From: Alcaligenaceae bacterium
GTDB taxonomy: Bacteria > Pseudomonadota > Gammaproteobacteria > Burkholderiales > Burkholderiaceae_B
Direction: 5' to 3'
Length of the DNA: 64,000 nt
NCBI GenBank assembly: GCA_947379755.1
Contig: CANCOC010000004.1
Coordinates: 1 to 64,000, forward strand
Of this stretch, positions 25,249 through 27,248 are shown in pieces. Below the pieces are notes generated by a model that ran no database searches, was not told the DNA's origin, and worked only from the letters and a program-made list of their open reading frames with translations. How positions within the stretch are numbered: position 1 is the stretch's first letter; each line of letters opens with the position of its first letter. A program made the translations under genes and the position numbers.

Positions 25249-26430
25249 ATGCTGACCTGGAACGACGAACCTACTACTACGCACACCTCGCCCCCTCAGG
25301 GCGTGGCGCCTGCGCAAGCCTCCCTGCCACAACGCAATGCCACCGGAGTATTCGGTGACGATGCGTTGCCCACCCCCGGCCTGTCTCTCAAACCGGTGGC
25401 CGCCGATGCGGCAACACGCGTCAATGTCGCGGACAAACGCATCATCAATGGCAAGACAGATGTCAATCAACTGGTGCCCTTCAAGTACAAATGGGCCTGG
25501 GAAAAATACATTGCAACCTGCGCCAACCACTGGATGCCGCAAGAAATCAATATGTCGCGCGACATCGCGCTCTGGAAAAATCCAAACGGACTGACTGAAG
25601 ACGAGCGTCGCATTATCAAACGCAATCTTGGTTTTTTCGTCACGGCTGACTCCCTGGCTGCCAACAACATCGTGCTGGGAACCTACCGCCACATCACGGC
25701 TCCCGAATGCCGCCAGTTTTTGTTGCGCCAGGCGTTTGAAGAAGCGATTCATACCCACGCCTATCAATATATTGTTGAGAGTCTGGATCTTGATGCCTCC
25801 GAAATCTTTAATGCCTACAACGAAGTCCCTTCGATTCGGGCCAAAGACCAATTCCTGATTCCGTTCATTGACGTCATTGCAGATCCTCTGTTCAAGACCG
25901 GTACACCCGAGGCTGACCAGACACTGTTGAAATCGTTAATTGTGTTTGCCTGCCTAATGGAAGGCCTGTTCTTCTATGTCGGTTTTACACAAATTCTTGC
26001 ACTGGGTCGCCAGAACAAGATGACAGGAGCCGCGGAGCAGTACATGTACATCCTGCGTGATGAATCCATGCATTGCAATTTCGGCATTGATCTGATTAAC
26101 ACGATCAAACTTGAAAATCCTCACCTCTGGACACCTGCATTCCGCGAAGAAATTCGTGCACTGTTCGCAAAGGCTGTTGATCTGGAATATGCATACGCTG
26201 AAGACACCATGCCACGTGGCGTGCTGGGTCTGAATGCACCAATGTTTAAATCATATCTGCGCTTTATTGCAAATCGTCGTTGCCAACAGATCGGTATTGA
26301 GCCATTATTCGCACAGGAAGAAAATCCATTCCCGTGGATGGCTGAAATGATTGACTTAAAGAAAGAACGTAACTTTTTCGAAACACGTGTGATTGAGTAT
26401 CAGACTGGCGGTGCCCTGAACTGGGAGTAA
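25249..26430 (+). CDS. nrdB: Class Ia ribonucleotide reductase, beta subunit
   Basis: Di-iron subunit that generates the tyrosyl radical used by NrdA. In the 393-residue protein the first metal ligand is probably the Asp of [20 protein letters not shown] supplies the E-x-x-H ligands and the radical Tyr seven residues after the Glu, and DESMHCNFG supplies the second E-x-x-H pair. The first ~60 residues are Pro/Ala/Thr-rich and look disordered. It is cotranscribed with nrdA. After its stop comes a 261-nt structured gap and then the histone H1-like gene. Confidence 0.96.
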
Positions 26431-26691: not shown

Positions 26692-27075
26692 ATGGCAACA
26701 GCCAAAAAAGCAGTCAAGAAAGTTGCAGCAAAGAAAGTAGTTGCTAAGAAAGTAGTTGCTAAGAAAGTAGTTGCTAAGAAAGTTGTGGCAAAGAAAGTTG
26801 TAGCTAAAAAAGTTGTAGCTAAGAAAGTTGCAGCTAAGAAGCCAGCAGCTAAAAAAGTTGCCGCTAAAAAGCCTGCAGCTAAAAAAGTAGCAGCTAAGAA
26901 GCCTGCAGTTAAGAAAGTTGCAGCTAAGCCAGCAGCCAAAAAAGTTGCCGCCAAAAAGCCAGCAGCTAAAAAAGTCGCAGCTAAGAAGCCTGCAGCTAAA
27001 AAAGTTGTCGCTAAGCCAGCCGCTAAAAAAGTAGTCAAGCCAGTCGCAGCTAAGCCAGCTGCAAAAAAAAAATAG
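26692..27075 (+). CDS. Histone H1-like, Lys/Ala-rich DNA-binding protein (zero frame ends at a poly-A tract)
   Basis: Almost the entire 127-residue product is Lys, Ala and Val in KKVVA/KKPAA/KKVAA pentads, the composition of bacterial H1-like proteins (Bordetella BpH1, HctB types) that bind and compact DNA. Start ATG is preceded by AAGGAG. The zero frame stops with TAG directly after ten A residues (27063-27072). The -1 frame then continues for 41 codons with matching composition, giving a 168-residue product. So this reading probably lacks the real C-terminus, unless slippage restores it. Codon use is A-rich and unlike neighbouring genes. A long structured leader precedes it and a terminator follows at 27223. 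Confidence 0.88.
   Translation: MATAKKAVKKVAAKKVVAKKVVAKKVVAKKVVAKKVVAKKVVAKKVAAKKPAAKKVAAKKPAAKKVAAKKPAVKKVAAKPAAKKVAAKKPAAKKVAAKKPAAKKVVAKPAAKKVVKPVAAKPAAKKK
26731..26820 (+). repeat. 15-bp tandem repeats encoding KKVVA
   Basis: Three perfect copies of AAGAAAGTAGTTGCT stand at 26731-26745, 26746-26760 and 26761-26775, followed by three imperfect copies; more degenerate pentad repeats continue to about 27060. Copy-number change would lengthen or shorten the protein by five residues without shifting the frame. Confidence 0.92.
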
Positions 27076-27197
27076 TTAAAAAAGCTGCGGCCAAAAAGCC
27101 TGCAGTCGCTGCCCCCACGGCAGTTGCAGCACCAGTGGCCAAAACAGCCCTGAATCCTGCAGCATCGTGGCCATTTCCTACGGGCGGCCGTCCTTAA
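27063..27197 (+). pseudogene. -1 frame C-terminal part of the H1-like protein (frameshift at A10)
   Basis: After the ten-A run, the -1 frame (codons from 27072, stop TAA 27195-27197) reads through more Lys/Ala sequence and ends KTALNPAASWPFPTGGRP. From memory, an 'ALNPAAxWPFPTG' ending is characteristic of Burkholderiales H1-like proteins, so this is very likely true coding sequence. Joining the frames needs one extra base (or two fewer), equal to a -1 slip on A-AAA-AAA. The cause may be programmed slippage, a variable tract, a real inactivating mutation or a sequencing error. It is entered as a pseudogene only because the frame is broken. Confidence 0.8.
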
Positions 27198-27222
27198 GCT
27201 TTAAGGCTTAGGCTAGTACTAA

Positions 27223-27248
27223 CCGCCCAGTTCGCTGGGCGGTTTTTT
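27223..27248 (+). terminator. Rho-independent terminator of the H1-like gene
   Basis: CCGCCCAG (27223-27230), loop TTCG, CTGGGCGG (27235-27242), then TTTTTT. It lies 25 nt after the -1 frame stop and 147 nt after the zero-frame stop, which supports the longer reading as the real gene end. Confidence 0.95.

Follow-up and report, generated by a model that had tools for sequence, protein, structure and literature searches.

A histone H1-like gene of Burkholderiales that probably makes two protein forms through programmed -1 slippage at an A tract

When the reading frame of a bacterial gene stops directly after ten A residues and the -1 frame goes on into a conserved tail, is the gene broken or does it make two products? 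We address this question for a histone H1-like gene in a window of 64,000 nucleotides (the whole stretch analyzed here, positions 1 to 64,000 of contig CANCOC010000004.1). The gene adjoins nrdA-nrdB on their downstream side; its upstream neighbor nrdB (25249..26430, plus strand) serves as our anchor for relatives and for a tree. The zero-frame ORF (26692..27075, plus strand) starts with ATG, has AAGGAG immediately 5' of it, and translates to 127 amino acids ending in KPAAKKK. At its end it reads GCA AAA AAA AAA TAG: the third base of GCA and the three AAA codons form an A10 tract (27063..27072, plus strand) that contains the heptamer A_AAA_AAA, and the TAG (27073..27075) abuts it. The -1 frame re-reads A27072, begins ATA GTT and continues for 41 codons (IVKK...LNPAASWPFPTGGRP) to a TAA at 27195-27197, so that the extension occupies 27072..27197 on the plus strand; the tail peptide, ...TALNPAASWPFPTGGRP, ends in WPFPTGGRP, while the third frame meets a stop two codons past the A10. 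An earlier note on this DNA had described the stop directly after the A10 and, in the -1 frame, 41 more codons with a WPFPTG-type tail, giving products of 127 and 168 residues, and both descriptions agree with the sequence and its translation.

The same note held that the terminator fits the longer gene. A terminator-like hairpin of 10 pairs followed by a T run does lie 3' of the tail stop (27221..27244, plus strand), and visual inspection of 25 genomes of the window's genus shows a GC-rich hairpin plus T run 3' of the tail stop in each; a single call of this kind is weak, since the kilobase of the gene holds 3 terminator-like sites on its two strands against 1.9 expected from shuffles. The A10 is the sole A/T run of at least ten in the 3.37 Mb assembly, in which a search for A9 returns 42 matches at 41 places. 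We did not see a second tailed paralogue in this genome: the tail pattern matches once, and a search with the gene region returns one full match and a weak one of 47 bases.

The product appears to be a member of the H1-like (HC2) family, and its presumed role in DNA binding and compaction rests on composition. More than one third of its residues are lysine, and the 127-aa product scores 51.4 bits against Pfam PF07382 (HC2), above the cut-off of 40, compared with 49.7 bits for an in-frame relative (L107). The piece 27063-27195 aligns to profile positions 150-194, which is the end of the profile, with 24.7 bits and an E value of 2.9e-5, a score that alone is below the family cut-off. With its Lys/Ala repeat body and a tail that corresponds to the profile end, the protein resembles other HC2 proteins (Chlamydia Hc2 and the Burkholderiales copies), from which it differs: among 80 named loci, 58 have an in-frame tail. 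Size variation in Chlamydia Hc2 arises from repeat number (PMC2848022).

Our preferred reading, which we hold at a probability of roughly 80%, is that one gene yields two forms of an H1-like nucleoid protein through programmed -1 slippage. Ribosomes translating the Lys/Ala-rich DNA-binding body would arrive at the A tract and its adjacent TAG, and many molecules would end there as tailless proteins of 127 amino acids. Some would slip back one base, most likely through re-pairing of tRNA-Lys on A_AAA_AAR next to the stop, and these would gain the 41 codons with the conserved WPFPTG tail and end as proteins of 168 amino acids. We infer that both proteins are made and that their ratio matters; the tail would serve some contact other than DNA binding.

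How common is this arrangement among close relatives? The window's genus (g1) comprises 32 genomes, and a search that required A9 recovered tract and tail from 25 of them; loci anchored on nrdB agree with this recovery. The tail lies in the -1 frame in 22 of the 25 (20 with A10-TAG and two, G003 and G022, with A9-G-TAG), and the three in-frame tails (G001, G012, G019) still have the A10 or A9. Immediately 3' of the tract stands TAG in 20 genomes, GTAG in four and GTAA in one. An A_AAA_AAA or A_AAA_AAG in zero-frame phase is shared by 22 of 25 genomes, 24 of 25 have 125-126 nt between the tract and the stop of the tail, and GC-A10-TAGTTAA is identical across the 18 aligned sequences of the 20 A10-TAG genomes (two lie outside the alignment). 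Zero-frame lengths among the shifted, NrdB-anchored genes span 72-128 aa; in G013 and G020 the contig begins within the gene, so that the start codon is outside. The remaining seven genomes divide into four with a partial tail at a contig edge and three without a tail match. Assemblies of this genus often break in or beside the repetitive histone-like gene (L086, L089, L091, L093, L095, L105, L111 and L201-L204).

On a tree built from nrdA and nrdB, one clade of the genus has 26 rows, 20 of them with known state: 19 are shifted and one (G001) is in frame. Its sister clade places the shifted G022 alongside the in-frame G012 and G019.

If the extension is a real part of the product, it should evolve as protein in the -1 frame, and this is the pattern we find. 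Across 24 genomes of the window's genus, with G003 excluded for a 9-nt insertion and 268 usable pairs out of 276, the tail has dN 0.056, dS 0.78 and dN/dS 0.072, and both remaining frames are interrupted by stops in all 24. In a third genus, g73, introduced below, two tail lengths were scored: the ratio is 0.18 for the 15 unique sequences of the first (103 of 105 pairs) and 0.35 for the seven of the second (20 of 21 pairs). By this measure, purifying selection maintains the protein sequence that the -1 frame encodes. For the tract itself, the four silent zero-frame sites show no changes among 18 A10-type genomes on the nrdA/nrdB tree, and the third positions of five tail lysine codons show one to three changes each; 10 of 41 tail third positions are also unchanged, so that invariance of a single site is unremarkable.

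The arrangement reaches beyond the genus. In a second genus of the same family (g40, seven genomes) the tail is -1 shifted in G249, G250, G251 and G255 and in frame in G252, G253 and G254, with G249 and G254 truncated by contig ends. The shifted G251 has two A_AAA_AAG heptamers and no run above A6 at the junction. The third genus, g73, belongs to another family and counts 186 genomes, mostly of 1.4-2.6 Mb. There, A9-G-TAA stands ahead of TGGCC, a motif of the tail, in 126 of 186 genomes by pattern match, and inspection of 34 distinct loci places the tail in the -1 frame in 33, with the heptamer in phase in 33; the exception, L315, has a different register from an extra base further on. Among the 60 g73 genomes lacking the pattern, 38 were searched again, 35 had the tail motif and 25 loci were fetched: eight are -1 shifted, two are in the third register with A8, 14 are in frame and one is unclear. 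Three of these eight shifted loci (G663, G690, G740) have merely A8-G following GCT. Four of the 14 in-frame loci (L355, L360, L363, L370) have A10-GTA at the junction, a state like that of G001 and G012, and the other ten are without a run of at least nine near the tail. In G671 (L353) and G702 (L362), A8 after GC puts the tail in the third register, beyond a single -1 slip.

Most of the other relatives we looked at have an in-frame tail. Among 91 stretches from other genera of the window's family, the tail frame is open for at least 100 aa or cut by a contig end in 81 (eight cut), with the longest A run at most eight within those 81 tail ORFs; the rest are six short complete genes and four uninformative cases. 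Three genomes of genus g25 have A9 and in-frame genes. The 80 named loci reached from nrdB resolve into 58 in frame (one by eye), one with Ns in the gene, 20 without the tail and one shifted, the last (L004) coinciding with G014 of the window's genus. An order-wide scan of 399 genomes from 159 genera for AAAAAARTAR before the tail, in a sample that held one g1 genome and none of g40, matched nine genomes: the window's own, all six sampled g73 genomes, and two further places that lack a tail ORF of this kind. In all, some 160 species-level genomes have the arrangement (22 + 4 + 126 by site pattern + 8), with the frame checked in 67; the data set has one genome per species and many metagenome bins, and the number of genomes does not equal the number of independent events. 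Because in-frame genes lie between the three genera, we infer that the recurrences in them are independent. Four short basic proteins of genus g23 (L220, L221, L222, L224) have few lysine repeats and retain a WPFPTGSRP tail, which suggests a tail with a role of its own.

This distribution bears directly on two ways of explaining the break away. An error of base calling or assembly, or the decay of a pseudogene, would be natural to suspect in a homopolymer of a single assembly many of whose relatives are metagenome bins, and the earlier note had listed a base-calling error among its alternatives. The same break recurs, however, in 22 genomes of one genus and in another genus in 33 of 34 inspected loci (126 genomes by pattern), with a tail under purifying selection, and we consider this explanation scarcely credible. 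The other alternative raised there was a variable tract that switches the tail, in which replication slippage would turn the tail on and off within a population. An A10 is plausible as a contingency tract, and A7, A8, A9 and A10 all occur among g73 species, each sampled by one genome. Under such switching mixed lengths would be expected among close relatives, whereas in the window's genus all but two of the 22 shifted genomes have exactly A10, and 33 of 34 g73 loci have exactly A9; phase variation is thus disfavored and very improbable. What the note had proposed first, a slip on A-AAA-AAA or on the A10 that gives 127- and 168-residue proteins, gains support from the comparison, in that three genera conserve the arrangement and the -1 tail is under purifying selection.

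A subtler objection is that the shift is a tolerated indel: slippage of either kind would happen to rescue a mutation, and the short form would have no role. That g1 and g73 each hold in-frame and shifted alleles speaks for it, as do the two or more switches that the nrd tree, judged by eye, suggests within g1. Yet a long A run should revert readily, and still 22 of 25 genomes in g1 and most of g73 are shifted, with the same body/tail junction across three genera; we regard a tolerated indel as unlikely. The shifted state is kept in most genomes of two genera though in-frame alleles should be within reach; of the in-frame alleles, the three of g1 and G252 of g40 retain the tract with a concealed stop behind it, and 10 of 14 in g73 do without it. 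This suggests selection for making both forms where the tract is retained.

If slippage joins body and tail, which machine slips? The -1 cases with an adjoining stop have in common an A_AAA_AAR in zero-frame phase, and A_AAA_AAG ranks with the most efficient -1 motifs of E. coli given a stimulator, with stimulatory structures usually beginning 5-8 nt downstream (PMC4066793). A stimulator, be it such a structure or an SD-like element upstream, is usual but not obligatory. Several of the A9-G sites have a candidate structure of this type. In g73, 11 of 24 unique sequences have a predicted stem of 7-8 pairs with its core starting 6-8 nt past the heptamer, and three others a shorter version; changes in this hairpin are one-sided or break pairs, with no clear compensation. 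G003 (L108) has a perfect 12-pair stem 10 nt past A9-G, within the tail coding sequence (z -4.63, -4.75) and unlike its relatives, and G255 of g40 has a 5-pair stem (z -2.78) and GAGG upstream. The strong stem of G022 falls within its shuffles (z -1.07), and none was found downstream in G249, G250 or G251. For the A10-TAG sites we sought a common downstream structure in 17 unique sequences and found none (mean z about -0.5), which counts against a ribosomal -1 slip there and for slippage by RNA polymerase; the window's own 70 nt have z -2.6, compared with -1.2 to +1.3 for seven relatives folded alongside. SD-like GGAG, GAGG, AGGA or AGGG within 18 nt 5' of the last heptamer is absent in 22 of 22 shifted g1 genomes, 41 of 41 in g73 and three of four in g40, which also counts against a ribosomal slip.

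The competing account is that RNA polymerase stutters on A9-A10, so that tract lengths vary among mRNAs and body and tail are joined at the level of the transcript. In-frame alleles that keep the tract would likewise give rise to both forms under this account. GTAG or GTAA is concealed just behind the tract in the three in-frame g1 alleles and in G252. A run of at least nine is present in all 25 recovered g1 genomes and in all 34 inspected g73 loci, although both sets were found through A9. The codon that precedes KKK in g73 ends in A in 34 of 34 of these loci (GCA 28, GTA 5, GAA 1), despite GCA making up 110 of 1057 alanine codons in the bodies of the same genes, a figure biased upward by the A9 pattern through which the loci were found. 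An A kept ahead of the lysine codons is more than the last heptamer requires and would fit either transcriptional slippage or tandem heptamers. More generally, Thermus dnaX slips on nine A, and selection against A/T runs is evident at nine nucleotides in a large share of 108 bacterial genomes (PMC1088944). The in-frame tails of G001, G012, G019 and 14 of the 25 fetched g73 loci also weigh against programmed -1 slippage, as does the A8 register of G671 and G702, which a ribosomal -1 slip would leave unserved and which seems to fit neither ribosome nor polymerase simply.

Other variants point the opposite way. G251 with its two A6-G heptamers, and G663, G690 and G740 with A8-G, are shifted identically and suit a ribosomal slip, and the hairpins predicted downstream of A9-G in G003, in G255 and in 11-14 of the 24 unique g73 sequences likewise weigh against polymerase slippage. 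A9 runs are also found within ORFs of the window's genome. We looked there for avoidance of A9 in coding DNA, which would hint at a slippage-prone polymerase, and it is not evident: several of the 30 A9 loci fetched out of 42 matches (29 places) lie within ORFs of at least 90 codons. On balance we favor the ribosome over RNA polymerase as the main slipper, by a modest preference; transcriptional slippage is a serious possibility, somewhat less probable, with the polymerase a strong rival or a helper. The natural site variants (A10-TAG, A9-G-TAA with or without hairpin, A8-G, tandem A6-G and in-frame A10) could serve to separate ribosomal from transcriptional slippage.

This picture has precedents. 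E. coli dnaX undergoes a -1 frameshift on A_AAA_AAG, and its shifted product is the short one. The H1-like gene resembles E. coli and Thermus dnaX as a cellular gene with an A-rich slip site and two products that differ C-terminally; in contrast to E. coli dnaX, the shifted product here is the long, conserved one and the A10 sites lack a common hairpin, and unlike dnaX the protein is H1-like. In genes of IS elements, an A/T run of about nine joins two ORFs by transcriptional slippage (PMC1088944). The present gene shares with these the run of about nine between two ORFs, but whereas IS elements are mobile it is found as one copy in the window's genome, beside nrdAB. Recoding is well known in few non-mobile bacterial genes, prfB and dnaX being named as the best-known recoded bacterial genes beside IS elements in the GeneTack survey (PMC3711429), and here it would act on a chromatin-like gene. 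Our literature search, which did not extend to bioRxiv preprints, found no report of frameshifting or slippage in histone H1-like genes, including those of Burkholderiales and Polynucleobacter; the word histone is absent from the main text of the GeneTack survey and appears once, in a eukaryotic context, in the text consulted of the review PMC5009743. A practical caution for annotation is that such H1-like genes should not be called broken.

A broader idea, which we offer as speculation and think improbable, is that a frameshift-gated tail module arose separately in several Burkholderiales lineages and that the ratio of tailed to tailless protein could report lysyl-tRNA supply or translation rate. 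The thought follows from the slip falling on lysine codons that end a protein rich in lysine, so that the ratio of H1 forms could report lysyl-tRNA supply; if true, this ratio would adjust how compact the nucleoid is to the growth state, with no regulator protein involved.

Finally, the slip site has a counterpart in viral contigs. Phages make the tail-assembly chaperone G/GT through a -1 frameshift, and the H1-like gene is like it in that a -1 slip would add a C-terminal extension and unlike it in that protein and function are unrelated. A 19-base form of the site, GCAAAAAAAAAATAGTTAA, has exact matches in two IMG/VR contigs, at L302:3898-3916 on the minus strand and at L303:2297-2315 on the plus strand; the reversed pattern has no match, and a one-base variant has one, without a notable -1 ORF. 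In both contigs a -1 extension of about 70-80 aa follows an ORF of 117 or 120 aa whose last residues before the stop are EAKKK. This ORF matched no PHROG or Pfam family; it has a phrog_290 tail protein on one side and, on the other, an ORF with matches to tape-measure families, a place that we take to be that of the frameshifted tail chaperone of the G/GT type. These contigs speak for a -1 slip at such a site: the same 19 bases appear to be used independently in a viral tail region, where the chaperone name rests on position.
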